A stretch of DNA of 46,439 nt from assembly GCA_029263115.1 (NCBI GenBank), contig JAJCYC010000006.1, positions 1 to 46,439 on the forward strand. Direction: 5' to 3'. The translations under genes were made by a program, and so were the position numbers. Below are positions 9,628 through 28,421 of this stretch, piece after piece; the first letter of the stretch is position 1; every line of letters begins with the position of its first letter. Below the pieces are notes generated by a model. The model searched no databases. It was not told where the DNA came from and saw only the letters and a list, made by a program, of their open reading frames with translations. This stretch comes from Pseudonocardia sp. (GTDB taxonomy: Bacteria; Actinomycetota; Actinomycetes; Mycobacteriales; Pseudonocardiaceae).

Positions 9628-9640
9628 AGCCGTCCCGCCC

Positions 9641-10051: not shown

Positions 10052-10108
10052 GGGTTCCTCCTCGTTGCCTACGACGTCAAGGTTCGTCCGGACGCCGCGC
10101 CCGCGACA

Positions 10109-10122
10109 CGGACCAAAGCCAC
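10109..10122 (+). promoter_or_regulatory. Weak candidate DevR box upstream of the CBS genes
   Basis: CGGACCAAAGCCAC fits GGGNCNWWNGNCCC with two mismatches, keeping the central WW and the inner C/G pair. Its 58-71 bp distance to the CBS start equals the spacing of the 4281 box to its minus-strand gene. Confidence 0.35.
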
Positions 10123-10144
10123 GCTGTGCCCGGTTCCTTGGTCC

Positions 10145-10176
10145 CGCGCCCGGCGCGCCCGGCGCGCCCGGCGCGC
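10145..10176. repeat. 9-bp GC-rich tandem repeat
   Basis: Three exact copies of CGCGCCCGG (10145-10171) plus a partial fourth, in the gap between the DUF6544 gene and the CBS gene. Its arms can fold on themselves. It may be a simple slippage tract or act as a terminator after DUF6544. Confidence 0.6.
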
Positions 10177-10190
10177 ACGGTGGCGCGGCG

Positions 10191-12092: not shown

Positions 12093-13507
12093 CACCGGGG
12101 ACTCCTCACCCGTCGGTCCGGGAGCCTCGATGACCCAACTCGTCGTCGATTGCCCAGTGCTCGCAGGTCGTTCTCGATGCCGCTGCCTAGTACGTCGAGG
12201 TCGGTTGCCGAGTCGTCGCCGGTCAGCCCGAAGGTCACCCGATCCCGGTAACTGAAGATCGACACTCCGATCCGCATCCTGCTCGAGATCGGCACGTAGG
12301 GTACGACCTCGAGCAGCTCCCGACCCAGGCAGTAGAGCGGCTCGCGGGGTCCGGGGACGTTCGTGGTGACCGTGACGACCGCGTGCTGCGGGGCGTGCGC
12401 GGCGGCCCGAACCGGAGCGGCGATCAGCGGGAAGGGCTGGAACCGGGCCAGTGAGGTGAGCAGGGCCTCGGCCTCGGCCTCGCCTCCGGTCTTCAGTGAC
12501 GACAGCTCGGCGCGCACCGCCATGAGCCGGTCCAGCGGATCGTCTAGGTGTACCGGGAGCCGCGCCAGCAGTAGCGACACCTGGTTGTCGCGGACGCCCT
12601 CCGCGCCGGGGGCACGGACCGACACCGGCACCAGGGTGCGGATGGCCGTGGGGGTCGGCTGTTCGCCGCGTTCGAGCAGCAGCGCCCGGAAGCCACCGGT
12701 CACCGCCGCGAGGACGACGTCGTTGAACGTCCCGCCCGGTTCGCGCCGCGCCGTGTCGACGGTGTCCTTGCCGGTGCTCGCCCAGCTGTAGTGCCGGGGG
12801 CGGGCCAGCGGGCCGGTCAACGATGTACGCCTGGCGGGCCACATGCTGCCGGCCAGGGCCACCGACCCGCGCGCCGCCGCGACGAGCCGGGTCGGCCATC
12901 CCGACGGGCGCACCAGGATCCCGGCCAGGGCGCGGGCCTGGCGGGCCGGTAGTCGCACCACCTCGGCGACCGCATCGAGTACGAGACGCGCCGCGGACGG
13001 GTCGGAGTCGGGCAACCATTCGTCGGAAGGCACGACGCATGGGACCGGAGTCGGGTCCAGAACCGCTCGGTAGATGTCCGTGCCAGACACCCCGTCGACC
13101 ATGCAGTGGTGCACCTTCGAGATCAGCGCCCACCGGTCACGCGCCAAGCCTTCGACCAGCCAGTTCTGCCAGAGTGGCCGGTCCCGATCGAGTCGCGCCG
13201 ACATCACCCGGCCCATCAGCGCACGCAGCTCTGCGTCTCCTCCCGGCGACGGTAGGGCGGTCCGCACCAGGTGGCGGTCGATGTCGAATGACGGATCGTC
13301 CACCCACACCGGAGGCGCGAGGTCGAGCGGAACCTCCCGGACCTTCTGCCGGTAGCGGGGGATGAGCGGCAACCGCCCGATGAGGTGCGCGCGTAACTCC
13401 TTCAGGGTCGGTACCGGGCCGGCGAAGACCGCGATCGAGGCAATAGCCAGGGACAAGTTCGGCTCGGCGTCCTCGGCCAGCAGGAACACCGCATCCAGGG
13501 GTGTCAT
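12092..13507 (-). CDS. Wax ester synthase/diacylglycerol acyltransferase (WS/DGAT, Tgs1-like)
   Basis: 471 residues. It transfers acyl-CoA to diacylglycerol or long-chain alcohols to make storage triacylglycerol or wax esters. Seen: catalytic HHCMVDG (His133, His134, Asp138), N-terminal MTPLDAVFLLAE, the PLWQNWLVEGL motif, NDVVLAAVTGG, and the late SNVPGP-type motif TTNVPGPREPLYCLG. The length is typical of actinobacterial WS/DGATs. The start is the ATG at 13507 with GAGGTGAT upstream; a GTG at 13522 would add five residues. In mycobacteria tgs1 is DosR-induced and feeds dormancy lipid stores, matching this context. The last ten or so residues are Arg-rich and run to the overlapping ATPase-domain start. 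Confidence 0.9.
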   Translation of the reverse strand: MTPLDAVFLLAEDAEPNLSLAIASIAVFAGPVPTLKELRAHLIGRLPLIPRYRQKVREVPLDLAPPVWVDDPSFDIDRHLVRTALPSPGGDAELRALMGRVMSARLDRDRPLWQNWLVEGLARDRWALISKVHHCMVDGVSGTDIYRAVLDPTPVPCVVPSDEWLPDSDPSAARLVLDAVAEVVRLPARQARALAGILVRPSGWPTRLVAAARGSVALAGSMWPARRTSLTGPLARPRHYSWASTGKDTVDTARREPGGTFNDVVLAAVTGGFRALLLERGEQPTPTAIRTLVPVSVRAPGAEGVRDNQVSLLLARLPVHLDDPLDRLMAVRAELSSLKTGGEAEAEALLTSLARFQPFPLIAAPVRAAAHAPQHAVVTVTTNVPGPREPLYCLGRELLEVVPYVPISSRMRIGVSIFSYRDRVTFGLTGDDSATDLDVLGSGIENDLRALGNRRRVGSSRLPDRRVRSPR

Positions 13508-13586
13508 CCGATCACCTCGCACGCGTGTTCCTCCCTCGACATCGTCGGCAACCCTGCCCGCGCTCCCTGGGCCTCGGGCGAGGTGT

Positions 13587-14523
13587 TCACCGACTTCCGC
13601 TGGGGCCTGGCGTGTCGCCGCGGATCACCGCGACCGGGCAGTCGGCCCGGTGGATCAGCGCCTGGCTGGTCGAGCCGAGCAGTCGCCCGGAGATCTCGCC
13701 CCGGCCGCGAGAACCGACGACCAGCAGCCGGGCGCCCCGGCTCCGCTCGAGCAGGGCCCGCGCCGGACGCTTCCGCGGGAGCTCCCGGCGTACCTCGACG
13801 TCGGGGTACTTCTCCTGCCAGCCGGCCAGCCGCTCGGCCAGCAACCGGGTCTCCTCCTCGCGCACGTCGTCGGTGTACAGCAGGTTGACGATCTTCGGGT
13901 CGACCGCCATGTCCGCCCAGGCGTGCACCACGACCAGCGGGGCGGAGTGCCGGGACGCCCAGTCGTGGGCGAACGCCAGCGCCGCCTCGCTGGCCGGGGA
14001 CTCGTCGACGCCCACCACGACGGGGGCCGGGAGAACCGGCTGCTCGATTGGCCGCTCCCTCGGCGTCCCCGCGTACCACCACCACCGGGCATTTCGCGCG
14101 CGACACGACGCCCACCGCGACGGATCCGAGTAGCAGGCCGGTCAACCCACCCAGACCTCGGTCGCCGAGCACCACTAGTTCCGCGTCCACCGAGCGGTCG
14201 CTCAGCAGATCCACCGGCTGGGCCGTGCACAGGTCGGTCGTCACCTCGACATCGGGAGCCGCCGCACGGGCCTGCGCGGCGGCCTGTCGCAGGCAGTCCC
14301 GGGCCCACCCGAGAACGGTGTCTCGGTAGCCGGTGACAACACCCGGAGCGGGGTCCGCGCCGCCCCAGTCGTAGGCGTACACCAAGGTCAGGGGAACGCC
14401 CCGGACAGCGGCCTCCCGGGCGGCCCAGCGGGCGGCCCGCTCGGCGGACATCGAACCGTCGATCCCGACCAGGATCGGCGGCCTCTGTACTGTGGACGAC
14501 GGTGGCGTGTCGGACATGGTCAT
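13587..14523 (-). pseudogene. Tandem-domain universal stress protein with a frameshift between domains
   Basis: The ATG at 14523 (GAGAGGAG upstream) begins MTMSDTPPSS and a full Usp domain: ILVGIDGSMSAERAARWAAR, LVVLGDRGLGGLTGLLLGSV, CPVVVVRG. The second Usp domain continues in another frame: VVVGVDESPASEAALAF to VVGSRGRGEISGRLLGSTSQ and CPVAVIRG, stopping at 13587. Removing one base from the CCCC run (plus strand 14067-14070) joins both halves into a normal protein of about 300 residues, like mycobacterial Rv2005c/Rv2623. Either it is a sequencing or assembly error, a recent mutation, or a frameshift site. Unshifted reading runs to 13504 as low-complexity sequence. It heads the WS/DGAT operon. 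Confidence 0.8.
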
Positions 14524-14593
14524 CGTCTCCTCTCTGGTGACCAGCTCACCCGAGCGGCGTCTCCGGGAGCAGAGGCGTACGTCCCGGGACGGT

Positions 14594-14607
14594 TCGCCAT
14601 CAGTCCC
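14594..14607 (-). promoter_or_regulatory. Weak candidate DevR box upstream of the tandem UspA/WS-DGAT operon
   Basis: On the minus strand GGGACTGATGGCGA: the left half is a perfect DosR half-site GGGACT, the right half is poor (three mismatches to GGGNCNWWNGNCCC). It is 71-84 bp before the UspA start. Confidence 0.3.
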
Positions 14608-14689
14608 GCCTCGATCGAGACCCGAAACACCGACAGCGCATCGCATCGGGCCAGGGGTGCCCCGGTGCGATGCCTCGTACGGGAGAGCG

Positions 14690-15128
14690 AGTCGGTGCGC
14701 CACGGCCTGCTCGGCGCCGAGCACGGTCAGCGAGCGCACCTCCATCTCCGGGTAGAGCCTCTCGAACGTGCGGTCCTTGCTGAGCACAGTGCCTAGGTAG
14801 CCGAGCAGGAAGGACAGAGGGATCGACAACAGGCCCGGGTTGTCCGGCGGGAACCAGTGGAAGTCGACGCCCTGCGACGGGCTTTCCCGGTCACCGCGTC
14901 CACCGGCCTCCCGGACCGGCACCACCGGAGAGAAGACGATCAGCAACACCATGACCGCTAGCTGTTCTGCCGATAGATGCTCCACAGCGCCCCGGCGGTG
15001 TTGAACCGCTTCCAGAACAGCGAGTAGACGATGGTCGGCAGGTTCGCCGACGCGGCGACCAAAGAGGCGAGCGCTACCAGGAAGGCGATTTTCTGGCCGT
15101 TGGCCAGGATGCCGCCGGCGAAGATCCC
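14690..15128 (-). pseudogene. Truncated, frameshifted cation/acetate symporter (ActP-like)
   Basis: Two frames together read like the C-terminal third of ActP-type solute:sodium symporters: [20 protein letters not shown] and [16 protein letters not shown] in one frame (to a stop at 14958), then VMVLLIVFSPVV, HWFPPDNPGLLSIPL, FLLGYLGTVLSK and MEVRSLTVLGAEQAVAH in another. The shift is one base at about 14965. The N-terminal two thirds are missing; similarity stops abruptly at about 15128, where an unrelated SDR fragment begins on the other strand. No natural stop is evident. Clearly inactive. Confidence 0.8.
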
Positions 15129-15215
15129 GACAGGCTGGCTCGGCGAGCCCGACGAGGTCGCCCGGTTGTGGAGGTCCTCGCGAATCCCGACTCGGCCTTC
15201 ATCACCGGGCAGATC
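15122..15215 (+). pseudogene. C-terminal scrap of a short-chain dehydrogenase
   Basis: [15 protein letters not shown] in one frame followed one base out of frame by [16 protein letters not shown] matches the conserved end of SDR enzymes (R-GEP-EVA--V-FLAS--ASFITGQ). Nothing upstream of it is SDR-like. It abuts the symporter remnant, marking a recombination junction next to the integrase gene. Confidence 0.6.
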
Positions 15216-15312
15216 CACTCCGGTCTGTCCCACGGCGCTGTGTGCTGTCAGGCCGGTTTCTCGAGGCCGGCAAGCCGAAACTGCCAGATGATTGTGCTCG
15301 AGGATCTATCGG

Positions 15313-16545
15313 TTATGTATCTAGCCAGGCCGCGTCCATCACGGCTGCTGCCTTCGGATGTAGCTCGCCTCTCGCTACGTAGATGTCGGTGAGCGTGCTG
15401 ATCTTCGCGTGGCCGGTGAGATCGGCCTTCTGACGGTCGGTGAGCTCACCGGAGTCGTGCCAGATGGTGGCGGCCGTCTTGCGGAACGTGTGGCTGGTAA
15501 CCGGCCAGTCCATGCCGGCGGCCTTTCGGGCTTCGCGGATGTAGCCGGACATGTTGTTGGGGTCCTTCCAGGTCAAGCCGTCGCCGATGCTGCTGGAAGC
15601 GGGGAACACCGGAGCGTCCTTACCCGGGGCATCCCGAGCGGCGAGCATGGCTACGACGAACTGGGGGAGCGGAACGATTCGCAGCGAGGTTGCGGTCTTG
15701 CCGGCGTGCCGGTGCAGGCCCTTGCCCCGGTGTCGGACGATGTTGCCGGTGATGGCCACGATCGGCACCAGGCGGATGTCGTTGCAGTCGACGACTGGTA
15801 CGCCCTCCAGGTCGACGTCGTCCCAGCGCACGGCTAAGGCTTCTCCGATGCGGACTCCGGTACCGAGCATGAAGGTGACGATGTCGGGCAGGTCGCGCCG
15901 GCGGGCGTTCGCCTGAGCTCGAGATTCCTCGGGATCGTCGGATCGGCCGGTCATCCAGGCGAGGAAACGCTGACGTTCCTCTCGGGTGAGCGCTCGCGGC
16001 TTGCGGCCGCCGGCTTCGATGGGATCGAGGTGCTTGACGGGGTTGTTCGACATGGCCTCGTGCTGGATCGCCAGCCGGAAGATCAGCGACAACACGGTCC
16101 GGATGGTCTTGCGGGATTGGGCGCCCTGAGACGAGGCGAGTTCGGTGAAGAAGGTGTCGAGGCGGGGGACGGTGCACTCCCGCAGCCGCCACTGGCCCAT
16201 CGCGGGCAGGATCACTGAGTTCAGCCGCTGCCGGTAGGTGTCGGCGGTGGTCATCGTTCGGGTTCCCTCGGCGACCTGGGTGTTGAGCTTGGCCAGCCAC
16301 ATCTCGGCCGCCCGTTCGATGGTGTGCTCCCCGCGCAGCGGTGACTTCGGGCTGCCGGTCCGCGAGCGGATCTCGTCTTGCAGTGCGGTCAAGGCGATCG
16401 TCTTGGTCGGTCCCCGGCGCGCCAGCGTGCGAGTTACACCGTCGAAATCGCGGAACCGGCAGCGGGCGATGAAGCTTCGCTCGCCCGCCGGCTTGGTCAC
16501 CCGGATGCTGCCATGTGTACCCATGTTCAACGGTGGTCTTGCCAT
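15313..16545 (-). CDS. int: Tyrosine recombinase / phage-type integrase
   Basis: 410 residues, apparently intact. Seen: an N-terminal AP2-like DNA-arm domain (SIRVTKPAGERSFIARCRFR), a SAM-like core-binding domain (about 75-180, AAEMWLAKLNTQ), and the catalytic domain with Arg in GTGVRIGEALAVRW, SHTFRKT (His-x-x-Arg), TGHAK, and the nucleophile Tyr in LTDIYVARGE. It catalyses site-specific integration and excision. The ATG at 16545 lies about 105 bp from the 3' end of a tRNA gene on the same strand, the classic layout in which the tRNA 3' end is the attachment site. No excisionase or replication gene is seen beside it. Confidence 0.92.
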   Translation of the reverse strand: MARPPLNMGTHGSIRVTKPAGERSFIARCRFRDFDGVTRTLARRGPTKTIALTALQDEIRSRTGSPKSPLRGEHTIERAAEMWLAKLNTQVAEGTRTMTTADTYRQRLNSVILPAMGQWRLRECTVPRLDTFFTELASSQGAQSRKTIRTVLSLIFRLAIQHEAMSNNPVKHLDPIEAGGRKPRALTREERQRFLAWMTGRSDDPEESRAQANARRRDLPDIVTFMLGTGVRIGEALAVRWDDVDLEGVPVVDCNDIRLVPIVAITGNIVRHRGKGLHRHAGKTATSLRIVPLPQFVVAMLAARDAPGKDAPVFPASSSIGDGLTWKDPNNMSGYIREARKAAGMDWPVTSHTFRKTAATIWHDSGELTDRQKADLTGHAKISTLTDIYVARGELHPKAAAVMDAAWLDT

Positions 16546-16650
16546 CCGCAGCCGCCTCCGCTGTGAGCGTATCCGCGTCGTTTCCGCGCAGTTCGATCAC
16601 TAGACGGTAGCGTACGGGTCCGACACAAGGCTCTGAGCTGCAACTATGTG

Positions 16651-16725
16651 GGGCGGGTGGGGCTCGAACCCACGACCTGACGGATTATGAGTCCGCTGCT
16701 CTGACCAGCTGAGCTACCGCCCCTT
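16651..16725 (-). tRNA. tRNA with CAT anticodon (elongator Met or Ile2)
   Basis: The minus strand begins GGGGCGGTAGCTCAGCTGGT. The acceptor stem GGGGCGG pairs with CCGCCCC plus discriminator A; the anticodon loop is CTCATAA between GCGGA and TCCGT (one G-U pair); the T arm is GTGGG-TTCGAGC-CCCAC. The CCA end is not encoded. A CAT anticodon decodes Met or, if modified to lysidine, Ile AUA; sequence alone does not settle which. Its 3' end faces the integrase gene. Confidence 0.93.
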
Positions 16726-16837
16726 CGGCGCAGAGACTACCGGGACCACCTGATGCAGAGGCGGAAGTGGGCGCCCGCCGCGGCAGGGGTCACGACCCCG
16801 GCGACCGGTACCGGAGCCAGGCTGGTAGCAATGCCGG

Positions 16838-18601
16838 GTGCCCGAGAACCTCCAGGACCCGGTGGGGCTGGTGGCCGGCACCGAGGACTCCACCCCGCTG
16901 CAGTTCACCGTTGCGCTCCATCCGGAGCAGTACCTGCAGCTCGACGACGTGGTGGTCACCGTGCGGGGGGTGCCCGGGGTCGGGCCGGTGTCGACCGCCG
17001 GAGTGGTGACCCAGGTCCGGGCCCGGCATGAGGGCGCCAGTTTCGCCTCGGACGCGTTCCTGATCGGCGAGGGGGTGTTGCCCGCCCAGGTGCAGGAGAT
17101 CGCCGAGGTGGCCACCACCCGGGTGGACCCGGAGTGCTATGTGCCGCCGCGCCCCGGTGAACCCGTGCGGCGGGCCACCGGCGAGGAGCGGGCCCGCGCG
17201 CTGTACTTCGACCGGATGGACCACAAGGTGGCGGTGGGCCTGGGCCGCGACGGCGAGCCGATCTATCTGAACCTGGAGTTCCTGGACGGCACCCGCGGCG
17301 GGCACGTCTCGATCAGCGGCGTCTCCGGGGTGGCCACCAAGACCAGCTTCGCGCTGTTCCTGCTGCATTCGATCTTCCGTGGCGGGGCGCTGGGCAACCG
17401 CGCGGTGAACGCCAAGGCGCTGATCTTCAGTGTGAAGGGCGAGGACCTGCTGTTCCTCGACCACGCCAACCGCCGGCTCGCCGACCCCGAGGAGGGCCCC
17501 GAGCTCAGGGAGTGCTACGCCACGTTGGGGCTGCCGGCCGAGCCGTTCGCCTCGGCCGGGTTCTACGCCCCGCCGACCCCGGACGACCCGACCGGGCGCC
17601 CGCACGTCACCGGGCGGACCAGCGGGATCACCCCGTTCTGGTGGACGCTGAACGAGTTCTGCGCGCTGGAGTTGCTGCGCTACGCGTTCGCCGACGCCGA
17701 GGACGAGCGCAACCAGTACACCTCGGTGATCCACCAGGTGGCCACCCGTCTGCGGTTCGAGGCGCTGCCGGTCGGTTTCGACGGGGCGGTCGCCATCGAG
17801 GGCCGGCACCTGCGCAGCTACGACCAGCTCGTGGAGTTCCTCTCGGAGAAGCTCACCGACGAGGACGCGGCCGTGCGGGCGCCGTGGGCCGGTCCGGTCA
17901 CCGGCACCGGCACGATCAACGCGTTCCTGCGCCGGCTGCGGTCCAGCCTGAAAGCGCTGCGCACCGTCGTGCGCGGCGACCTGCCGGACACCCCGGGCCG
18001 GCGGATCAGTACCGAGGGCCAGCAGGTGACGGTGGTAGACCTGCACAACCTCCCGGAGCGGGCGCAGCGGTTCGTGGTGGGTGTGGTGCTCGCCGCCGAG
18101 ACCGCCCGCAAGGAGGCCGCGGGTCCGGGCGGGCTGCTGTTCACCATGATCGACGAGCTGAACAAGTACGCCCCGCGCGAGGGCACCAGCCCGATCAAGG
18201 AAGTGCTGCTGGACATCGCCGAACGTGGCCGCTCGCTCGGCATCATCCTGATCGGCGCCCAGCAGACCGCCAGCGAGGTGGAGCGCCGGATCGTGGCCAA
18301 CTCGTCGGTGAAGGTGGTCGGCCGGTTGGACCCGGCGGAGGCAGGGCGGCCCGAGTACGGGTTCCTGCCGGCCACCCAGCGCGGCCGGGCCACCCTCGCC
18401 CGGCCGGGCACCATGTTCGTCTCCCAACCGGAGATCCCGGTGCCGCTCGCGGTGGAGTTCCCGTTCCCGGCCTGGGCCACCCGGCTGTCGGAGAGCGCGG
18501 GGCCCCCGGTGGGGCCGTCCACGGGCAACGGCGCCGTGGCGTCGGTCCAGTCCTCGGCCCTGCACCGGCTGCCGCCGGTGCACAACGACCCGCCGTTCTA
18601 G
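16838..18601 (+). CDS. HerA-like DNA-translocating ATPase
   Basis: 587 residues. Seen: an N-terminal beta-rich HAS-barrel-like region (about 1-110), then an FtsK/HerA-type ATPase core with a P-loop-like SGVSGVATKTS (Lys168), a Walker B-like MIDELNKY (Asp439-Glu440), and GIILIGAQQTASEVERRIVA, typical of the HerA hexameric helicase/translocase family. The P-loop is non-canonical: no Gly precedes the Lys and the loop seems one residue longer than GxxxxGK(T/S). HerA partners with the NurA nuclease and Mre11-Rad50 in DNA end resection in archaea; homologues of all three lie 1.4-6.5 kb downstream. The start is the GTG at 16838, with no clear ribosome site. Confidence 0.82.
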   Translation: MPENLQDPVGLVAGTEDSTPLQFTVALHPEQYLQLDDVVVTVRGVPGVGPVSTAGVVTQVRARHEGASFASDAFLIGEGVLPAQVQEIAEVATTRVDPECYVPPRPGEPVRRATGEERARALYFDRMDHKVAVGLGRDGEPIYLNLEFLDGTRGGHVSISGVSGVATKTSFALFLLHSIFRGGALGNRAVNAKALIFSVKGEDLLFLDHANRRLADPEEGPELRECYATLGLPAEPFASAGFYAPPTPDDPTGRPHVTGRTSGITPFWWTLNEFCALELLRYAFADAEDERNQYTSVIHQVATRLRFEALPVGFDGAVAIEGRHLRSYDQLVEFLSEKLTDEDAAVRAPWAGPVTGTGTINAFLRRLRSSLKALRTVVRGDLPDTPGRRISTEGQQVTVVDLHNLPERAQRFVVGVVLAAETARKEAAGPGGLLFTMIDELNKYAPREGTSPIKEVLLDIAERGRSLGIILIGAQQTASEVERRIVANSSVKVVGRLDPAEAGRPEYGFLPATQRGRATLARPGTMFVSQPEIPVPLAVEFPFPAWATRLSESAGPPVGPSTGNGAVASVQSSALHRLPPVHNDPPF

Positions 18602-18858
18602 TGCCTCGGGGTTCGGGTACCCGGGGGCTGCCCGTCGCAGGGGTGGACCGGGTGCGTGGGTCCTGGGTCGTCGCCCTGGTCACCGACGCCGGGGAGGTCA
18701 GCTGGTCCCACTGCGCCGGAGCCCGGGAGGTGCTCGCGGGCCCGGTGGACCGGGTCAGCGGCCGAAGTCGACGGACGCGGCGGGGTCCTGCTGGATCTCC
18801 AGCCTGGTGGGACGCCTGCGCCCCGGTCATCTCCTCGACGGCGCCGACGACCGCGTAG
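18601..18858 (+). pseudogene. Truncated DUF429-like ORF
   Basis: A GTG at 18601 shares its first base with the HerA stop (TAGTG). The first 45 or so codons (VAGVDRVRGSWVVALVTDAG) resemble the RNase H-like start of DUF429 proteins (GVDGCRGGWV). The similarity ends at about 18735; the rest is Arg/Pro-rich and antisense to an SDR scrap. DUF429 proteins are about 200-250 residues, so this is a remnant, although it may still be translated by coupling to HerA. Confidence 0.5.
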
Positions 18859-18917
18859 CCCGCGTTGTTGACCACGGTGTCCACCGGTCCGGACCGCAAA
18901 AATGTCCGGATGATCAC
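18800..18917 (-). pseudogene. Short-chain dehydrogenase fragment
   Basis: The minus-strand reading GPVDTVVNNAGYAVVGAVEE matches the NNAG strand region of SDR oxidoreductases (G-VDVLVNNAGY---G--EE). Neither the Rossmann start nor the Tyr-Lys active site is present nearby. It is a second, independent SDR scrap after the one at 15.1 kb. The rest of 18735-19014 holds nothing else I recognise. Confidence 0.6.
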
Positions 18918-19014
18918 GTCCTCGACGTCGGCCGGCCGGGTGAGTCGAGGGTCTCGGCGGCCATTCGATCGGAGACCGGCGCCGGAGGAACCGCGGGTGG
19001 CCCAGCGGCCCGGC

Positions 19015-19797
19015 TCAGGTCGGGCCGAGAAGCGGGACCCGGGCCCGGGCGGCGTCGACCACGTTGGTGTCGATCTCCCCGATCAGCATCCCGGGTTCGC
19101 CGCCGAGTCGGGCCCGGGCCGCGCCCCAGGGGTCGGCGAGCACGCTGCGGCCGATACCCAACGGTGCCCTGCCGCACGGCGGGGCCCAGGCCTGGTCGCA
19201 GGCCAGCAGCCAGGCCTGGGCGTCCGCCGCGCGGGCCCGGGTGAGCAGGTCCCACTGCTCGGCCTTGCCCGGGCCCTCGCCCCAGCTGGCCGGCAGCACG
19301 ACCAGGGTCGCGCCGGCCCGGGCGAGCCCGGTGAACTGGTCGGCGAACCGCACGTCGTAGCAGGTGGCCAGCCCGACGGTCACCCCGTCCACCGGCACCG
19401 TGACCAGCTCGTCCCCGGGCGCGACCGTGTCGGACTCGCGCACGCCGAACGCATCGTAGAGGTGGATCTTCCGGTATCGGGCCAGGTCGCCGTCCGGACC
19501 GACCACCAGCAGCGTGTTGTACACCCGCCCGTCCGGCGCGGGTTCGAACATGCCGACCACCGCGGTGATCCGGTGCTCGCGAGCCGCCGCCCGGACCGCC
19601 CCGGCCCACGGGCCGTCCAGTGGCTCGGCCGCGACGGCCAGGTCGGACCCGAAGCAGGTCATGCTGGCCTCGGGGGTGACCACCAGCCGGGCGCCCCGCT
19701 CGGCGGCCGCCGCGACGGCCGCGACGACCTGGTCGCGATTGGCGGCCGGGTCGGGGCCGCAGGCCAGCTGGGCGGCGGCGACGGTCAGTGTGGTCAC
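19015..19797 (-). CDS. Carbon-nitrogen hydrolase (nitrilase superfamily)
   Basis: 260 residues from the GTG at 19797 (GGGGAG upstream). The Glu-Lys-Cys triad is visible: Glu in VVTPEASM, Lys in YRKIHLYDAFG, Cys in GLATCYDVRFADQF. The YRKIHLYDAFG motif recalls omega-amidase/deaminated-glutathione amidase (Nit1-type) members, which hydrolyse small amides; the exact substrate is not determined. It is cytosolic. It lies on the opposite strand between herA and sbcD, splitting that functional set, and appears coupled to a 39-codon ORF just upstream. Confidence 0.87.
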   Translation of the reverse strand: MTTLTVAAAQLACGPDPAANRDQVVAAVAAAAERGARLVVTPEASMTCFGSDLAVAAEPLDGPWAGAVRAAAREHRITAVVGMFEPAPDGRVYNTLLVVGPDGDLARYRKIHLYDAFGVRESDTVAPGDELVTVPVDGVTVGLATCYDVRFADQFTGLARAGATLVVLPASWGEGPGKAEQWDLLTRARAADAQAWLLACDQAWAPPCGRAPLGIGRSVLADPWGAARARLGGEPGMLIGEIDTNVVDAARARVPLLGPT

Positions 19798-19913
19798 GGA
19801 TGCTCCCCGGGGCGGTGGCGCCGGACGGTGTCCTCGAAGTCGGCGAACAGCGACTCCAGTTCGGTGACCGGCCTCCGGGGGGACAGTAGCTGCCAGCCGG
19901 TGCGGATGGTCAT
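19794..19913 (-). CDS. Possible 39-aa protein coupled to the nitrilase gene
   Basis: An ATG at 19913 opens a short frame beginning MTIRTGWQLLSPRRP, with an acidic helix (TELESLFADFEDTV) and a basic end. Its TGA overlaps the GTG of the nitrilase gene (GTGA), the arrangement used by real coupled genes across this window. No strong ribosome site is visible. It may be a small regulatory protein, a leader peptide or chance. It also covers most of the gap before the divergent sbcD. Confidence 0.4.
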   Translation of the reverse strand: MTIRTGWQLLSPRRPVTELESLFADFEDTVRRHRPGEHP

Positions 19914-19983
19914 GCCCGGGACGGGGGTCCGTGGTGAGGCCGCCTCGGAACCCGTCGGAGGTGGCGCCTACCGTGGTCGGCTG

Positions 19984-21153
19984 ATGAAGCTGCTGCACAC
20001 CTCCGACTGGCACGTCGGAAAGACGCTCAAGGGCCACAGCCGGTTGGCCGAGCAGGAATCGGTGCTGCGCGAGATCGTCGCGGTGGCCCGCGCCGAGCAG
20101 CCGGACCTGGTGCTGGTCGCCGGCGACCTCTACGACAGCGCGGCGCCCGGCGCGGCCGCCCAGCAGCTGGTGGTGCGGGCCCTGCTGGCGCTGGCCGGGA
20201 TCGGCGCCCGGGTGGTGGCGATCGCCGGCAACCACGACCACGGACCCACCCTCGATGCCTACCGCCCGCTGGCCGGCGCCTCCGGGATCACCCTGGTCGG
20301 GTCCTACCGGCCGGCCGCCCAAGGCGGGTTGATCGAGTTCGAGGCGCGTTCAACCGGGGAGCCGGTCCGGCTGGCGGTGCTCCCTTTCCTGTCCCAGCGC
20401 TTCGCGGTGCGCGCCGCCGAGCTGGTCGCCGCCACCCCGGCGGAGAACGCCGGCCGCTACGACCAGCAGGTCCGCGACGTGCTCGACGAGCTGACCGTCG
20501 GCTTCGGCGACGACTCGGTCAACCTGGTGATGGCGCACCTGACGGTGACCGGAGGGGCGTTCGGCGGCGGTGAGCGGATGGCCCAGTCGATCTTCGAGTA
20601 CCACGTGCCGGCCACCGTGTTCCCGGCGCACACGCACTACGTCGCGCTCGGTCACCTGCACCGCCGGCAGAGCCTGCCCGCGCCGTGCCCGGTGCACTAC
20701 TGCGGGGCGCCGCTGGCGGTCGACTTCGGCGAGCAGGACAACACCGCCGCGGTGTGCCTGGTGGAGGCCGCCCCGGGAGTGCCGGCGAAGGTCCGGGACG
20801 TCCCGATCACCGCCGGACGGCGGCTGCGCACCCTGCGCGGCAGCGTCGACGAGCTGGCCGCGCGGGCGGGCGAGGTGGGCGATGCGCTGCTGCGGGTGTG
20901 GGTCCGCGAACCGGCGCGGGCCGGGCTGCGGGAGCGGGTGCTGGAGCTGCTGCCGAACGCGCTGGAGATCCGGATCGACCCCGACTTCGCCGGCCCGGTC
21001 ACCGGGTCACGCCCGGCCGGCGGGACCGGCGGCGTGGAGCGGTCGCCCGGTGAGCTGTTCGGTGACTACTGCGCGACGCAGGGGATGGCCGACCGTCGGG
21101 TCGAGGCCCTGTTCGCGCGGTTGCACGACGAGGTCACCGGAGGTCCGGACTAG
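19984..21153 (+). CDS. sbcD: SbcD/Mre11-type nuclease subunit
   Basis: 389 residues. All metallophosphoesterase motifs are present: SDWHVGKT (Asp8, His10), GDLYD (Asp48), GNHD (Asn83-His84-Asp85), MAHLTV and GHLHRR, so two-metal (Mn2+) nuclease activity is expected. The C-terminal 90 residues are the capping and Rad50-binding region. With SbcC it opens hairpins and processes double-strand breaks and blocked ends. The ATG at 19984 is the usual MKLLHTSDWH start; the long upstream open frame is not similar. The stop is directly adjacent to the sbcC ATG. Confidence 0.94.
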   Translation: MKLLHTSDWHVGKTLKGHSRLAEQESVLREIVAVARAEQPDLVLVAGDLYDSAAPGAAAQQLVVRALLALAGIGARVVAIAGNHDHGPTLDAYRPLAGASGITLVGSYRPAAQGGLIEFEARSTGEPVRLAVLPFLSQRFAVRAAELVAATPAENAGRYDQQVRDVLDELTVGFGDDSVNLVMAHLTVTGGAFGGGERMAQSIFEYHVPATVFPAHTHYVALGHLHRRQSLPAPCPVHYCGAPLAVDFGEQDNTAAVCLVEAAPGVPAKVRDVPITAGRRLRTLRGSVDELAARAGEVGDALLRVWVREPARAGLRERVLELLPNALEIRIDPDFAGPVTGSRPAGGTGGVERSPGELFGDYCATQGMADRRVEALFARLHDEVTGGPD

Positions 21154-24100
21154 ATGCGCCCGATCCAGCTGGATCTGCACGGCTTCGCCGCCTTCCGGGA
21201 ACCCACCCGGGTCGACTTCGCCGGGGCGGAGTACTTCGCGCTGGTCGGGCCCACCGGGTCCGGCAAGTCCACGGTGATCGACGCGATGACGTTCGCCCTG
21301 TACGGCTCGGTGCCCCGCTGGGACGACCGGAAGATCGTGCACCTGGCGCTCGCGCCGACCGCCACCCGGGGGACCGTTCGGCTGGTGTTCGAGGTCGGCG
21401 CCACCCGCTACGTGGTCGCCCGCGAGCTTCGGCGCGGGGCCAACGACAAGGTGACGGTGCGCAACGCCCGGCTCGAGCGGCTGCTGGACCCGGCCGACCC
21501 GGAGGGCGAGACCGAGCCGGTCGCCACCGAGTCCGGCGTCAGCAGGCACGTCGAGGAACTGCTCGGGCTGCCGTTCGACCAGTTCTGCCAGTGCGTGGTG
21601 CTCCCGCAGGGCGACTTCGCCGCGTTCCTGCACGCCAAACCCGCCGACCGGCAGGAGACCCTGACCCGCATCCTCGGGTTGGGGATCTACCGGTCCATCC
21701 AGCAGCGGGCCGGCACCGAGGCAGCCACCGCGCGGCAGCGGGCCGAGGTCATCACCGGCGAACTGGGCCGCTACACCGACGCGGACCAGGCGGCGCTCGA
21801 CGCAGCCTGGCGCCGGGCCGACGCGCTGTCCGCGCTGGCCGAGCGGGTGGCCGTCGCGGTGCCGGCCCTGGCCGACGCCGAGCGGTCCGCCCTCGAGGCC
21901 ACCCGGGCGGCCGAGCGGGTGCGCACCGAGATCGGCGTGCTCGCCGGGTTGCGCCCGCCGGTCGGGCTCGCCGCGCTGGCCGCCGACGCCCGGCTGGTCG
22001 GTGAGCGGGTCGGCGCGGCACGGGCCGTCGTGACCGCGGCCGAAGCGGCAGACACCGGGGCGCGCGCCGCGCTGGCCGCCGCGCCCGATCCCGGCCCGTT
22101 GCGGCAGCTGCGCCGCGACCACGCCGAACTGACCGGGCTGCGGGCCGAAGGCCCCGGGCTGGGCGCCGCGCTCGCCCGGGCCCGGGACGCGGTCGTCGCC
22201 GCGCACACCCGGACCGCTGCCGCCGCCGCCGCGCTGGACGGCGCCCGCGCCGCCGAAGCCGCGGCGGCCACCGCGCGCGACACCGTGCACGCCGAGGCGG
22301 CCCGGCTCGCCGACGAGCTGGCCCGGCTGGCCGTCATCCGGATGCCCACCGAGGTGACCGGGCTGACCGGCGAGCTGAGCGCGGCGGCCGAGCGGTCGGC
22401 CGGGGCCCGGGCGGCCGCTGCGGCGGCCGAGGACACCGTCGACCAGGCCCGCGTCGACCAGGCCGGCGCCGCCCGCGCGCTGACCGCCGCCCGCGCCGAG
22501 CTCGACCAACTCGTCCGCCTCGACCAGGCCGCCGCGCTGCGCGCCGAACTGGTCGCCGGCCACGACTGCCCGGTATGCGAGCAGCCGGTGCGCGTCGTGC
22601 CGCCGATCCCCACCACCAGCGAGCTTCCGGCGGCGCGGCAGGTGCTGGCCACCGCCACCGTCGAGCACGACCGGCTGGCTGCGGCCGTGGACGATGCCAC
22701 CGCGGCGCTGGCCGGGGCACGGGTCGCCGCGCAGCGGGCCGACGTCGCGCACACCGAACTGGTCGCCCGGGTGCAGCGGCTGGCCGCCGACCTGCGCGCG
22801 GCCCGGGATCCGCTGGTGGCGCTCGGCGCACCCGCATCGGGCACCGACCTGATGGAGTCGTGGACCGAGCTTGTCGGCTGGACCGGATCCGCCGCGGCGG
22901 AACGGTCCCGGCAACTGGCCGGGCTCGACCGGGACGGCGCCGACGCGGCCCACACCAGCGCGGTGCGGGCCGTGCGGGAGGCGGCCGGGGCCGTGGAGAG
23001 GTGTCGCGGCGCGGAGACCGGGGCGGTGCGCGCCGAGCACGACGCTCGGCGGGCCGCCGAGCGCGCCGAGACCCGGTCGGTCGAGCTGGTTGCGGCGCTG
23101 GCCGGTGCGCCCACCGACGCCGAGGCCGCCGACCGGCTCGACGAGCTGGCCGAGCTCAGGGTGCGTGCGACCGCCGCCGACACCGCCCTGCGCGACGCCC
23201 GGGCCAGGCTGACCGAGGCCGCGTCCGGGGCCGAGCGGGTCGGCGCGGCGCTGCGCACGGGGTGGCGGGAGCTGGACGCCGCGCGGGATCCGCTGGTCGG
23301 GCTGGGCGCCCCGGCGCTCGACGACCAGGCCATCGCCGGCCGCCGGGCGGAGGCCGCCGGCGCGGCCGCCGCGCTGGTCGACGGGTGGCGGGCGCTCACC
23401 GACTGGGCCGCGCGCGTGGCGGGGGAACGCCGGGCCGGGCTGCCGGCGGCCGAGGCCGCCGTGCGCGCCGCCGCTGCCGCGGTGTCCGCGGCCGAGCAGT
23501 CGTTGATCGGCGACCTGCGGGCGCACGAGCTGCGACTCGGCGACGGCCGTCCGTTGGCCGCCGAGGCGCCGGTGCTGGTCGCCGCCGCCTACGCGCGGGC
23601 CCGGGCCGGTGCCGAACGGCTGGCGGAGCGGTGGGACGAGGCGCGACGGTTGGCGGAGCAGCACGACGACGCCCAGCAGGCCCACCAGGTGGCGACCACG
23701 CTGGCCCGGTTGCTGCGTAGCAACGAGTTCCCGCGCTGGCTGGTGGCCTCGGCGCTGGACACCCTGGTCGCCGATGCCTCGAGCCGCCTCGCCGAACTCT
23801 CCGGCGGACAGTTCGAGCTCACCCACGAGGCGGGCGAGTTCCTGGTGGTCGACCACGCCGACGCGGACACCCGCCGGCCGGTCAAGACGCTGTCCGGCGG
23901 CGAGACGTTCCAGGCCAGCCTCGCGCTCGCGCTGGCGCTGTCCGAGCAGCTGTCCACCCTGGCCGCTGCCGGCGCCGCCCGGCTGGACTCGATCTTCCTG
24001 GACGAGGGGTTCGGCACCCTGGACGAGGCCAACCTGGAGATCGTCGCCGCGACGCTGGAGAACCTGGCCGCGGTCGGAGACCGGATGGTCGGGGTGGTCA

Positions 24101-24192
24101 CCCACGTGCCGGCACTGGCCGAGCGGGTGCCGGTGCGGTTCGTGGTCAGCCGCGACCAGCGCACCTCATCGATCGTGCGGGAGGGCGGGTGA
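21154..24192 (+). CDS. sbcC: SbcC/Rad50-type SMC ATPase
   Basis: 1012 residues. Seen: Walker A GPTGSGKS (residues 32-39), the Q-loop/FCQCVVLPQGDFAAFL region, long Ala/Glu/Arg-rich coiled coils (about 180-460 and 490-850), a zinc hook CPVC (Cys472, Cys475), ABC signature LSGGE (913-917), and Walker B IFLDEGFGTLD (Asp950-Glu951). It partners SbcD in an ATP-controlled DNA-end nuclease. The gene begins immediately after the sbcD stop and its TGA overlaps the GTG of the NurA-like gene. The coiled coil is so Ala-rich that its antisense frames stay open over 3 kb. Confidence 0.95.
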   Translation: MRPIQLDLHGFAAFREPTRVDFAGAEYFALVGPTGSGKSTVIDAMTFALYGSVPRWDDRKIVHLALAPTATRGTVRLVFEVGATRYVVARELRRGANDKVTVRNARLERLLDPADPEGETEPVATESGVSRHVEELLGLPFDQFCQCVVLPQGDFAAFLHAKPADRQETLTRILGLGIYRSIQQRAGTEAATARQRAEVITGELGRYTDADQAALDAAWRRADALSALAERVAVAVPALADAERSALEATRAAERVRTEIGVLAGLRPPVGLAALAADARLVGERVGAARAVVTAAEAADTGARAALAAAPDPGPLRQLRRDHAELTGLRAEGPGLGAALARARDAVVAAHTRTAAAAAALDGARAAEAAAATARDTVHAEAARLADELARLAVIRMPTEVTGLTGELSAAAERSAGARAAAAAAEDTVDQARVDQAGAARALTAARAELDQLVRLDQAAALRAELVAGHDCPVCEQPVRVVPPIPTTSELPAARQVLATATVEHDRLAAAVDDATAALAGARVAAQRADVAHTELVARVQRLAADLRAARDPLVALGAPASGTDLMESWTELVGWTGSAAAERSRQLAGLDRDGADAAHTSAVRAVREAAGAVERCRGAETGAVRAEHDARRAAERAETRSVELVAALAGAPTDAEAADRLDELAELRVRATAADTALRDARARLTEAASGAERVGAALRTGWRELDAARDPLVGLGAPALDDQAIAGRRAEAAGAAAALVDGWRALTDWAARVAGERRAGLPAAEAAVRAAAAAVSAAEQSLIGDLRAHELRLGDGRPLAAEAPVLVAAAYARARAGAERLAERWDEARRLAEQHDDAQQAHQVATTLARLLRSNEFPRWLVASALDTLVADASSRLAELSGGQFELTHEAGEFLVVDHADADTRRPVKTLSGGETFQASLALALALSEQLSTLAAAGAARLDSIFLDEGFGTLDEANLEIVAATLENLAAVGDRMVGVVTHVPALAERVPVRFVVSRDQRTSSIVREGG

Positions 24193-25190
24193 CCAGCACG
24201 TCGGCCGCGCAGGCGTCCGGGACGGCCTGGCGGATCGAGAGCTGGGACCCCGGGTACGGGGCGAGCACCGAGGAGCAGCCCGGTCAGTCCCTGATCGAAC
24301 CGGTACTGGACGTGGAGCTTCCCCCGCACGCGTGGCGGCCGGTGGATTCCGGCTCGGCGGCCTGGCCGGGCGCGCTGTTCGTGGACGGGGTGCGTCGGAT
24401 CGACGCGATGGGCTGGGGCGGCGCGTCGGAGAGTGCGGCGGACGGCACGCCTTCGCTGGGGTTGTTCGCCTCGTACGCCGCCGGAGTTGTGCGGTGCCGA
24501 CCGGGGCACGCCGGGCTGATCGACGCGCAGGTGCACCGGGGGCTGTTCAGCGGGGCGGCCCCGGTACTCGACGTGCACACCTCCGCCGGGCGATACGCCG
24601 GGATCGGGGTCGCGCTACGGGGGGAGTCACCGCCACCGATGCAGCAGCTCGGTGAGCGGGTCCAGGAGCGGATGCGAGCCCTCGAGCTGGAGGTGTCCCA
24701 GCGGGCCCGGACCACCTGCGCGGACTCCGACGTGCTGGTGGTGGACGGGCCGCTGCACAACCAGGTCCGGTTGCCGCGCACCCTCGGCTACGCCAAGACC
24801 CACGCCACCCACTACCTGCCGGCCGAGCTGAACCGCCTGGTGGGTCGGCTCGCCGCCGGGCAGCGGACGCCGGTGTTCGGCCTGCGCGACCGCTTCTCCT
24901 GGTACCTGAAGCTGCCCGGCGGTTCCGGGGCGCCGTGGGCGGGGGTGGTCCGGGTCGAGTGCTGGGCGGACCAGCCGGCGGGAGAGCCCACCGCCAGCTC
25001 GATCGACACGGCGATCGAGCTGGCCTCGGCCAGCCAGCCCACGCTCTGCCGCTACGCCTCGTGCGAGTACAAGGACACCCGGGCCCCGCAGAACCTCTAC
25101 CCGATCGCCGGACTGGAACGGGAGCTGCGCCGCCGCCTCGGCGACCAGCGGCTGCTGCACCGGGCGATCCGCCGCGCCGCCAGAGGGTGA
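24189..25190 (+). CDS. NurA-like nuclease
   Basis: 333 residues, GTG start overlapping the sbcC stop (GTGA). The spacing of acidic motifs fits the RNase H-like NurA fold: FVDGVRRID (Asp66), LVVDGPL (Asp186), GYAKTH (Lys203), VRVECW (Glu258), and the late NLYPIAGLEREL. NurA is a 5'-3' nuclease that works with the HerA motor in archaea and some bacteria; the HerA-like gene 5.6 kb upstream and the coupled Mre11-Rad50 pair support the same role here. Assignment is by motif order and context, not overall similarity. Confidence 0.75.
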   Translation: MTSTSAAQASGTAWRIESWDPGYGASTEEQPGQSLIEPVLDVELPPHAWRPVDSGSAAWPGALFVDGVRRIDAMGWGGASESAADGTPSLGLFASYAAGVVRCRPGHAGLIDAQVHRGLFSGAAPVLDVHTSAGRYAGIGVALRGESPPPMQQLGERVQERMRALELEVSQRARTTCADSDVLVVDGPLHNQVRLPRTLGYAKTHATHYLPAELNRLVGRLAAGQRTPVFGLRDRFSWYLKLPGGSGAPWAGVVRVECWADQPAGEPTASSIDTAIELASASQPTLCRYASCEYKDTRAPQNLYPIAGLERELRRRLGDQRLLHRAIRRAARG

Positions 25191-26207: not shown

Positions 26208-26501
26208 TCAGCCGACCCCGAGCGCGGCGCCGATCTCCGGGTAGCCGGCGCCGGCCTGGCCGGCGTAGAAGATGTCGGCCTCCGCGCGGGCCCCGGCGCT
26301 GCGCCGGAGCTGGGTGAGCACGTAGAGCCGGGCCAGGTGCGCGGCGGGGCGTTGTTCCTCGGCGATGCGTGGGTCGACCGGCCCGTGGGGTGCCTGGTCG
26401 GCGGACAGCCCGGTCAACCGCCGGGCCCACCGCCAGGCCAGTTCCGCCACGTCCCGGTCGAGCTCGTCGAGTTCGGCTCCGGTGAACTCCCGCCGCTGCA
26501 T
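26208..26501 (-). CDS. Hypothetical protein, possibly a truncated HTH protein
   Basis: 97 residues from the ATG at 26501 (MQRREFTGAELDELDRD). Mostly helical: ELAWRWARRLTGL, then ARLYVLTQLRRSAG and YPEIGAALGVG at the end. The last motif looks like the first helix-turn of an HTH that is normally followed by a recognition helix (…GVSRQAA…), but a stop follows, so the C-terminus may be cut. Function unknown; it is oppositely oriented to the mce remnants. Confidence 0.5.
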   Translation of the reverse strand: MQRREFTGAELDELDRDVAELAWRWARRLTGLSADQAPHGPVDPRIAEEQRPAAHLARLYVLTQLRRSAGARAEADIFYAGQAGAGYPEIGAALGVG

Positions 26502-26615
26502 GGGTCCACTCTGGCGACAGCCGGCGAACCGGGCAAGGCCGATCGGCAACGGCGCGGATACGACTTCAGTACGGTCGTGCGCCGCATTCCCGCAGGTCGG
26601 CCGGCTTCGGCGGCT

Positions 26616-26814
26616 CCCAACACCAGGGAGATCGCACCGCTGGTCGCCGCCGTGGCGTTCGCCGCCCAGGCCGGCTGCCGGTACACCGCGCAGCTGGGTG
26701 CGATGCGGATCGCCGAGGAGGTGGACGCGCTGGAGTCGATGGCGATCCAGCCGCTGCCGTACCTGGTCACCACCCGGATGCTGGCCGCGTTCATCGCCAT
26801 CGTGCCGCCCTACA
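26616..26814 (+). pseudogene. YrbE/MlaE permease fragment (mce locus)
   Basis: REIAPLVAAVAFAAQAGCRY, then AMRIAEEVDALESMAIQPLP and YLVTTRMLAAFIAIVPPY match the conserved core of YrbE permeases of MCE lipid importers (EIGAMRISEEIDALE-M---P). Only about 65 residues remain of about 260. It is fused in frame to an Mce-protein segment. Confidence 0.78.
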
Positions 26815-26816
26815 CC

Positions 26817-27220
26817 GCGACCCTGCGGGAGGTCGATCCCACCGTGCGTGAGCTGCTCATCGACAGCCCGGAGTCGCTGGCGCTGATCCGGGACGTGGTG
26901 CGGGACAACGGCCCGTCGGTGGCCGCACTCCTCGGTGACCTGGGGACGACCACCGACGTGGTGGCCTTGCGGCTGCCCGCGCTCGGGGAGTTCCTGCCGG
27001 GACTCCTGCTGCTCGGACCGGCACGCCCCGGCGCGCGCCGACCATCGGTGGCAGCCCTGCGCCCTGGATCAACCGCCACTGCGAGCACACCGGACCCCGC
27101 TTGCAGCAACGCGGGTCGGCCAACGTGCCCCGGCCGCGCGGCGGCGACGGCGCCGTTCCACGGCCGGGGGCGGACCCGGAGCAGCGGGCCCGGGCGCCGA
27201 AGGATACTGGCGGGCGATGA
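26817..27220 (+). pseudogene. Mce-family substrate-binding protein remnant
   Basis: In frame after the YrbE scrap, VRELLIDSPESLALIRDVVR and LLGDLGTTTDVVALRLPAL resemble the late helical part of Mce proteins. A second frame then gives LQQRGSANVPRPRGG, the signature RGSxNVPRP tail of actinobacterial Mce proteins, ending in a TGA that overlaps the ATG at 27217. So the native gene boundary with the downstream Mas gene survives, while most of the Mce coding sequence is gone. Confidence 0.7.
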
Positions 27221-27597
27221 CGACCGACGACGAATCCGACCGCACCGCTCCCCGGACGCCGGACCCGCTGGCACCGGACCCGCCCGCGACGGGACCCGGG
27301 CGGCCCGACGTCGGCCGAGCCGACCGATGGCGGTGCTGACGGTTCAAGAACCAGTACGCCGGAGCCAGCCAGACCCTGCGCCAGCTGATCACCGATGCGA
27401 AGGCGAGCTCCCAGGGCACCGTGCTGGACGCAGCGGTGCGTTCCGCGAGCACCGACGAGGTGGTGGTGCTGCTGTTCGTCGACCAGACGATCACCAACGC
27501 GACCGTCCCGGCGCCGAGGCTGGACCGCAACCGGGTGGTGATGACCCTGACCCCGCACGACGGTCGCTGGCTGGTCGGCTCCCTGGAGCTGACGTGA
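27217..27597 (+). pseudogene. Mce-associated (Mas) membrane protein remnant with in-frame stop
   Basis: The ATG at 27217 (ATGA overlap with the Mce remnant) opens an acidic, Pro-rich cytoplasmic N-terminus, stopped by TGA at 27337. The same frame continues as FKNQYAGASQTLRQLI, VRSASTDEVVVLLFVDQTIT and RVVMTLTPHDGRWLVGSLEL, the conserved C-terminal domain of Mce-associated proteins. The transmembrane segment and about 80 residues are missing, consistent with an internal deletion. The final TGA overlaps a GTG of the next open frame. Confidence 0.72.
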
Positions 27598-27665
27598 GTA
27601 CGCTCCGCACCCGGGTGATGATCACCGGCGTGATCGGGGACGGTCGTACACAGACTGGAGTGGGC

Positions 27666-28421
27666 ATGACAGTTCCATCCGACGGCCCGACCCTGGTGCG
27701 GGGACTGCTGGATTCGACCCGGCTGGACCGCGAGCCCGCCGACGGTGGGGGTTACCTCGACCTGCTGTCCGCCGACCCGGGCCAGCCGCGCACCCTGGCC
27801 CAGGCGGCCATGCACAGCGGCCTGCTCGCGTCGGTCTACCAGCGCTGGTGGCGTCCGACGTTCACCGCCGGGCTCGGCCTGGGCTCGATGGACGGCGAGC
27901 GGACGAACGCCCTCGCCGCGCTGGAACTCGGTGGCGAGCAGCGGGTGCTCGACGTGGCCTGCGGCCCGGGGAACTTCACCCGGGTGTTCGCCGAGGCGCT
28001 GACCGGTGACGGGGTCGCGGTCGGGCTGGACGTCTCGGCGCCGATGCTGGCCCGCGCGGTGCGGGACAACGCGGTACCCCACGCCGGCTACCTGCGGGCG
28101 GACGCCCGCCGGCTGCCGTTCGCGGACGCCAGCTTCGACGCCGTGTGCTGTTACGCCGCGCTGTACCTGGTTCCCGAGCCGTTCACGGTGCTCAACGAGT
28201 TGCTCCGAGTGCTCGGTCCGGGCGGCCGGATCGCGGTGATGACCAGCTACCGGGCCGACCGCGAGCCGCTGCGCACCGCGCAGACCGCCGCGGGGTGGAC
28301 CGCCGGCCTGCGGATGTTCGACCGTGACGAGATCACCGGCGTGCTCCGCTCGGCCGGCCTGGTCGATGTCCGCCAGCGGGTCACCCGGCTGGCGCAGTCC
28401 GTCGCCGCCCGGCGCCCCTGA
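27666..28421 (+). CDS. Class I SAM-dependent methyltransferase
   Basis: 251 residues from the ATG at 27666 (GGAGTGGGC upstream); a coupled GTG at 27594 would add 24 residues. Seen: YQRWWRPTFTAGLGLGSMDG, motif I VLDVACGPGNFTRVF, the acidic end of beta-2 VGLDVSAPML, LPFADASFDAVCCYAALYLV, and LLRVLGPGGRIAV. This is the UbiE/Coq5-like methyltransferase fold, with the N-terminal lead common in mycobacterial-type enzymes. The substrate is unknown; it directly follows the mce remnants. Confidence 0.85.
   Translation: MTVPSDGPTLVRGLLDSTRLDREPADGGGYLDLLSADPGQPRTLAQAAMHSGLLASVYQRWWRPTFTAGLGLGSMDGERTNALAALELGGEQRVLDVACGPGNFTRVFAEALTGDGVAVGLDVSAPMLARAVRDNAVPHAGYLRADARRLPFADASFDAVCCYAALYLVPEPFTVLNELLRVLGPGGRIAVMTSYRADREPLRTAQTAAGWTAGLRMFDRDEITGVLRSAGLVDVRQRVTRLAQSVAARRP

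Follow-up and report, generated by a model that had tools for sequence, protein, structure and literature searches.

Our analysis of a 46,439-nucleotide stretch of Pseudonocardia sp. (GenBank assembly GCA_029263115.1, contig JAJCYC010000006.1), referred to at its full length as the window, points to a set of four genes, herA, sbcD, sbcC and nurA, which we consider quite likely to be a DNA-damage-inducible module for the end resection of DNA breaks, of the same kind as HerA-NurA of Deinococcus and with an SbcCD of its own. This reading starts from the genes themselves, the fold, the catalytic residues, the co-inheritance of the four genes and the promoter motif of the relatives, and from these we infer a complex, a polarity of digestion, induction and a role in repair. 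All four genes lie on the plus strand with intact reading frames, and their identity as HerA, SbcD, SbcC and a NurA-like protein, which a preliminary description had read from the DNA letters, is upheld by family profiles and motifs. The features are arranged as follows.

16838..18601, plus strand: herA, Deinococcus-type HerA motor ATPase, 587 amino acids, GTG start (family profile against PDB 7f6d_B)
about 19015..19790, minus strand: carbon-nitrogen hydrolase (nitrilase-like) gene with uncertain start codon, outside the set (PF00795, E 1.8e-40)
19953..19974, plus strand: RecA-NDp/PafBC-like promoter motif, 31 bases 5' of sbcD (one mismatch to TGTCRG-N10-TANNNT)
19984..21153, plus strand: sbcD, Mre11-like nuclease, 389 amino acids, ATG start (TIGR00619, motifs)
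21154..24192, plus strand: sbcC, Rad50-like ATPase, 1012 amino acids (TIGR00618, motifs)
24189..25190, plus strand: nurA, NurA-like nuclease, 333 amino acids, GTGA overlap with the sbcC stop (profile, model and fold)

Identity of the four proteins

Taken alone, the HerA protein is nearly silent against Pfam and NCBIfam. A profile built from 15 relatives, in turn, matched the solved HerA of D. radiodurans (PDB 7f6d_B) with an E value of 1.4e-183, where the following chains came at 0.0017 or above and no archaeal HerA chain of the PDB appeared at E <= 1. The window HerA is 49.8% identical to D. radiodurans HerA over 554 aligned positions, and among the 14 HerA positions named in PMC9960219 ten are identical and invariant in 15 of 15 rows of the profile. 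As for the mapped residues of the ATPase and the DNA contacts, 9 of 11 are kept relative to D. radiodurans; K168, T169, K200, D203, D439, E440, R447, R465 and R504 are invariant in the 15 relatives, including Walker A (K168/T169), Walker B (D439/E440), the catalytic acid D203 and the trans-acting arginine R465, each found in every row. In D. radiodurans numbering the acid D220 and the trans-acting R513 are among the kept positions, and the pore arginines for DNA translocation, R495 and R552 in D. radiodurans HerA, correspond to R447 and R504 (15 of 15 rows). Judged by these comparisons the window HerA is of the Deinococcus type, bacterial and not archaeal. The set had been called archaeal-like in the preliminary description, which does not hold for a HerA nearest to that of Deinococcus, and acquisition from archaea was rejected because no archaeal HerA chain was matched at E <= 1. 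The archaeal HerA-Mre11-Rad50-NurA operon has the same four functions and a common NurA fold, but differs in that the window HerA is of bacterial type and the window genes are not contiguous; in many relatives they are contiguous.

The NurA-like protein scored 14.9 bits against the Pfam NurA model, under its cut-off of 21, and this model found no match in the genome scan, though it detects the proteins of Deinobacterium and Thermotoga. With a search profile of ten relatives, D. radiodurans NurA (7f6d_H) was reached at E 9.6e-37, and TM1739 of Thermotoga gave E 3.1e-4. The AlphaFold2 model, built on an alignment of 47 relatives, reaches a mean predicted local distance difference test (pLDDT) of 87.8 and a predicted template modelling score (pTM) of 0.87, and its Foldseek matches below 0.001 are three, all of them NurA: 7f6d_G (5.8e-18), 1zup (1.5e-12) and 2ygk (1.2e-4). 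By VIA-align the Z scores are 24.1 for Thermotoga, 24.0 for Deinococcus and 15.3 for Sulfolobus NurA, followed by TdpAB (14.0) and more archaeal NurA; the nearest unrelated family is Endonuclease V (10.3), and what the Endonuclease V and Argonaute rows, ranking under the NurA rows, have in common with them is no more than an RNase H-like fold in general; no second family independent of HerA was conspicuous in this list. D66, K203 and R298 are the counterparts of the catalytic D53, K201 and R309 of D. radiodurans and are invariant in 10 of 10 rows of the profile and in 47 of 47 of the alignment, in which W19 of the N-terminal region is likewise invariant; matched through cyanobacterial NurA, this W19 would be the functionally important W8 of Deinococcus. 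As predicted by the model, then, the product of 24189-25190 has the RNase H-like NurA fold with its catalytic residues kept, in agreement with its first description as a NurA-like nuclease. In one genus (g67; loci L011-L015 and L017-L021) the NurA-like match is split in two within one open frame, which suggests an insert near residue 175.

SbcD matches TIGR00619 with 175 bits (cut-off 77.65) and carries the five phosphodiesterase motifs SDWH, GDLYD, GNHD, MAHLT and GHLH, as announced in the preliminary description; its true start is the ATG at 19984, a longer frame from 18865 being antisense to another gene. SbcC matches TIGR00618 at E 1.5e-72 with 245 bits, under the cut-off of 478.5, and has Walker A, the LSGGE signature, Walker B and the previously noticed zinc hook in the form of a CPVC motif. 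The GTGA overlap of sbcC and nurA is also real (start at 24189 against stop at 24192), and by the start-codon choice made here the same four-base overlap occurs in 33 of the 58 related loci where nurA was found. In the whole genome this SbcC is the sole SbcC-like match over both ends, and SbcD is likewise single.

Occurrence and common history of the set

The four genes are sparsely distributed and go together. Among 246 sampled genomes of the class, the NurA-like protein is present in 16, and exactly those 16 have HerA at E <= 8.2e-168, where the remaining 23 HerA matches are weak (7.9e-9 or above). For the phylum, 296 genomes were sampled; HerA at 1e-60 was found in 66, of which 64 have NurA at 1e-8 as well, the other two having HerA on a short contig. 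Co-conservation of herA with nurA, on which the preliminary description had made its reading depend, is thus supported by both samples. HerA occurs in 6 of 100 genomes of the window's own family. Module SbcD is the only SbcD in two of these six (the window's genome and G595), and the other four possess an additional one. In the sampled genomes G519, G565 and G597 of the same genus, neither an SbcD match at 1e-20 nor HerA was seen.

The gene order was followed in the best 80 of at least 455 relatives matching the HerA profile. In 76 of these 80 named loci herA is followed by sbcD on the same strand, and in 58 nurA is there too; of the four without sbcD, L083 and L113 end at once, and L065 and L091 show none within 10 kb and 6 kb, respectively. 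Moreover, 40 further loci were drawn from the 66 HerA-positive genomes of the phylum sample, and the four genes are together in 32 of them, in the order herA-sbcD-sbcC-nurA or nurA-herA-sbcD-sbcC; the other eight are L165, with no partner within 4.6 kb, and seven loci cut by the end of the contig or stretch. In L199 herA appears to be broken. Of the 39 further loci with HerA, 22 are counted in the first order (loci without nurA included here) and 17 in the second. The window's clade has the order herA-sbcD-sbcC-nurA. Across many genera outside Micromonosporaceae the recurrence is confined to the four genes; the Micromonosporaceae loci have flanks in common, and therefore the site has been inherited there. 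The set is also present in Mycobacterium gastri and in a metagenome-assembled genome of Mycobacterium (L086, L088). At L038 (G011:C44:31766-32064) there is a herA remnant with an in-frame TAG, in a genome that has no NurA match.

The pairwise distances of the four proteins correlate at 0.93-0.96 over 88 loci with all four complete, and in the three pairs tested none of 999 permutations reaches the observed value; by themselves these sequence correlations would fit joint transfer and shared descent alike. Further information comes from a tree of 67 SbcD rows made by a quick method, where long branches make finer points unsafe. All 42 module SbcD lie on one side of a starred branch (99), and on its other side lie 13 of the 16 stand-alone SbcD from the family together with 6 of 7 further SbcD; the 29 herA-first rows make one starred clade. 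The module side also takes in the three remaining stand-alone SbcD, L214-L216, whose genomes have no strong HerA, and L238 from a Streptomyces plasmid, which has no annotated HerA nearby; the SbcD of both cyanobacterial plasmids group there too. Altogether the four module proteins have, as far as their sequences tell, one common history.

Six plasmid records match HerA, among them two at 28% and a Nonomuraea record of 11.85 Mb that may be a chromosome. The Streptomyces linear plasmid NZ_CP134205.1 (L205) carries the full four-gene set, and its neighbours are TIGR02680, TIGR02678 and DUF2397 genes, which we take to be Wadjet, together with a gene for an ImmA/IrrE-family metallopeptidase. The order nurA-herA-sbcD-sbcC is found on two cyanobacterial plasmids (L207; L245 and L247), one locus spanning the origin of the record and one plasmid being typed as conjugative. 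The candidate of a phage gene set was rejected, the phages giving two distant records (25-26% identity) and the viral contigs one distant locus (27%).

Directly upstream of herA the window has a tyrosine integrase gene (15313-16545, minus strand) and a tRNA-Met gene (16648-16723, minus strand). No direct repeat of at least 20 bases was found in 9000-17000, so that an integrated element upstream of herA is not demonstrated, and a tRNA is absent from all 22 related loci scanned among the 80. On the other side, 26337-28421 is a single frame of 694 amino acids that matches an MlaE permease and also contains a methyltransferase domain; two genes may have been joined in this reading.

A probable damage-response promoter motif

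The consensus of the RecA-NDp promoter is given as tTGTCRgtg-8nt-TannnT (PMC5656591), and PafBC activates promoters of this kind (PMC8223512). In the form TGTCRG-N10-TANNNT with at most one mismatch, the motif was found in 25 of 81 upstream regions of herA, where shuffles would give 1.4, and in 17 of 620 neighbouring genes (Fisher 5.5e-15, a statistic that ignores relatedness). The exact published core precedes herA in 21 of 81 loci (12 genus labels); the opposite strand has it in 1 of 81, and of the neighbouring genes 8 of 604 have it. In the other classes, the exact core is before the first gene in 11 of 22 herA-first and 7 of 17 nurA-first loci (opposite strand 2 of 17 for the latter), and it precedes none of 17 inner herA and none of 16 last nurA, but also 9 of 37 sbcD. 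For eight Pseudonocardia loci as well as the window, a copy within one mismatch is located 30 or 31 bases before sbcD. A wider pattern, TGTCR-N11-YANNNT, which was chosen post hoc from Micromonospora and is not used as evidence, gives 53 of 81 herA, 12 of 604 controls and 6 of 60 nurA.

The LexA SOS box gave no clear signal before herA, with mean mismatches of 3.87 against 4.48 in mononucleotide shuffles. For the activator, the genome has adjacent genes for a PafC-like protein and another WYL protein, as a PafB-PafC pair. To judge from the motif counts, DNA damage probably induces the set in the relatives by way of a PafBC-type promoter. A RecA-NDp-type motif before the first gene points to repair more than to phage defence.

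Mechanism, alternatives and known systems

By analogy with the known enzymes, SbcCD (Mre11-Rad50) would act first, locating DNA ends and trimming or opening the blocked ones; the HerA hexamer would then pump duplex DNA toward a NurA dimer, which would split the duplex and digest the 5' strand, leaving a 3' single-stranded tail for RecA. The module would work beside an AdnAB-like enzyme, and it supplies the sole SbcCD found in the genome. An enzyme of the AdnAB or RecBCD type alongside had been supposed from the start, and for AdnAB this is supported: elsewhere in the genome two adjacent proteins each combine a UvrD with a PDDEXK_1 domain, the architecture to be expected for AdnAB.

Several observations weigh against an inducible resection module. 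In the window the unrelated nitrilase-like gene, 413 bases from herA and about 190 from sbcD, parts the two; as it is antisense, the set is here at least two transcription units and not one operon. The preliminary description stands as to the components of the set, and repair is the favoured reading. This gene has no counterpart in the 80 related loci (tblastn, 1e-5). Window herA has no promoter motif (four mismatches at best), the exact published core precedes neither herA nor sbcD there, the one-mismatch copy before sbcD being the only one, and among the relatives 60 of 81 herA upstream regions have no exact core. Of the acidic NurA-binding patch of D. radiodurans HerA, 1 of 3 positions is kept, with E80 and D81 lost; R154 and R96 are not kept either, and mutation of R96 was without effect (PMC9960219). 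As to function, archaeal HerA-NurA cut both strands in a 2026 study, which argues against resection (PMC12977600), and loss of nurA or herA did not visibly lower the radiation resistance of D. radiodurans (PMC5448004).

The most serious alternative, which we regard as unlikely, is an anti-phage or anti-plasmid module, where HerA-NurA would destroy foreign DNA ends recognised by SbcCD, like HerA-Sir2, HerA-DUF4297 and TdpAB. The patchy spread in class and family agrees with it, and so do the plasmid copies in one Streptomyces and two cyanobacteria, the Streptomyces one adjoining the presumed Wadjet genes. TdpAB is moreover a structural neighbour of the NurA model, with a NurA-like partner fold and a motor of the HerA family, and archaeal HerA-NurA has been proposed to be antiviral (PMC12977600). 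However, TdpAB and other HerA-type defence systems have different partners: no Sir2 or DUF4297 accompanies the set, PADLOC is weak for HerA and nil for NurA and makes no assignment, and in the window's relatives the promoter motif before the first gene is of the damage type. The chromosomal flanks conserved in Micromonosporaceae also speak against defence, as does a survey of 119 flank proteins from 15 loci (out of 260 from 38), in which neighbours of the defence type were few: within the first 25 of 120 families a Type I methyltransferase, a specificity subunit and a Type II methyltransferase occur once each, and other rows appear to be ATP-binding cassette ATPases, kinases and a TnpB-like protein; this survey has no control set and therefore neither shows nor excludes defence islands. 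For phage defence, as suggested in the preliminary description, the positive evidence is limited to the plasmid copy beside those presumed Wadjet genes and to the part that other HerA proteins have in defence.

A dual-purpose machine like RecBCD, degrading unprotected ends and switched by a signal to resection so that repair and defence are both outputs, is less probable still; a Sulfolobus study proposed modes dependent on end structure (cited in PMC12977600), and damage motif and plasmid carriage are both observed, but no switch signal is known for the family. Least of all do we expect that the nitrilase gene, by its insertion, split herA and sbcDC-nurA into separate units, perhaps as a decaying set with no joint machine in this genome: the intervening antisense gene and the motif-free herA would suit it, but the four frames are intact with catalytic residues kept, and Pseudonocardia loci have a variable herA-sbcD gap, up to about 9.4 kb (L052), some with the motif at -30/-31 before sbcD.

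Returning to the damage-inducible resection module, its closest known system is NurA-HerA of Deinococcus radiodurans (PDB 7F6D, 7WRW and 7WRX; PMC9960219), like it in HerA sequence, NurA fold and catalytic triplet, and unlike it in the linkage to sbcD-sbcC and in the mostly lost acidic patch. In Deinococcus, a connection between SbcCD and HerA-NurA was called unresolved in 2015 (PMC4663267), and in 2026 D. radiodurans was said to lack Mre11-Rad50 (PMC12977600). The same four gene kinds are adjacent in another bacterium, Oceanithermus profundus, for which nurA-hepA followed by sbcD and sbcC was noted in 2017 and a later recruitment of SbcCD was proposed (PMC5448004). Here, in contrast, module SbcDs from Actinomycetota and from two cyanobacterial plasmids split from 13 of 16 stand-alone ones in a tree that does not include Oceanithermus, and the order in the window's clade is different. 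We entertain tentatively, at somewhat short of an even chance, the wider proposal of a mobile four-part resection machine of bacteria that has an SbcCD lineage of its own, is passed on as one unit in Actinomycetota and onto plasmids, is wired to the PafBC damage response and can substitute for the ordinary SbcCD, as in this genome; the Deinococcus and Thermus pairs would be reduced forms of it and not its starting point. NurA and HerA homologues in Actinobacteria and Cyanobacteria were stated in a 2021 review (PMC8708640), and in the open-access literature searched we found no description of a phylum-wide actinobacterial four-gene module or of its promoter signature.

To sum up, the set is of a known kind, and the evidence of damage promoter and shared history in its relatives lifts it above routine annotation. 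It is disputed whether HerA-NurA serves break resection or the destruction of foreign DNA, and its partnership with bacterial SbcCD has been left open (PMC4663267, PMC12977600). With the four genes co-inherited in actinobacteria that are mesophilic and partly culturable, and in many cases preceded by a damage-type promoter, both questions become testable without hyperthermophiles.

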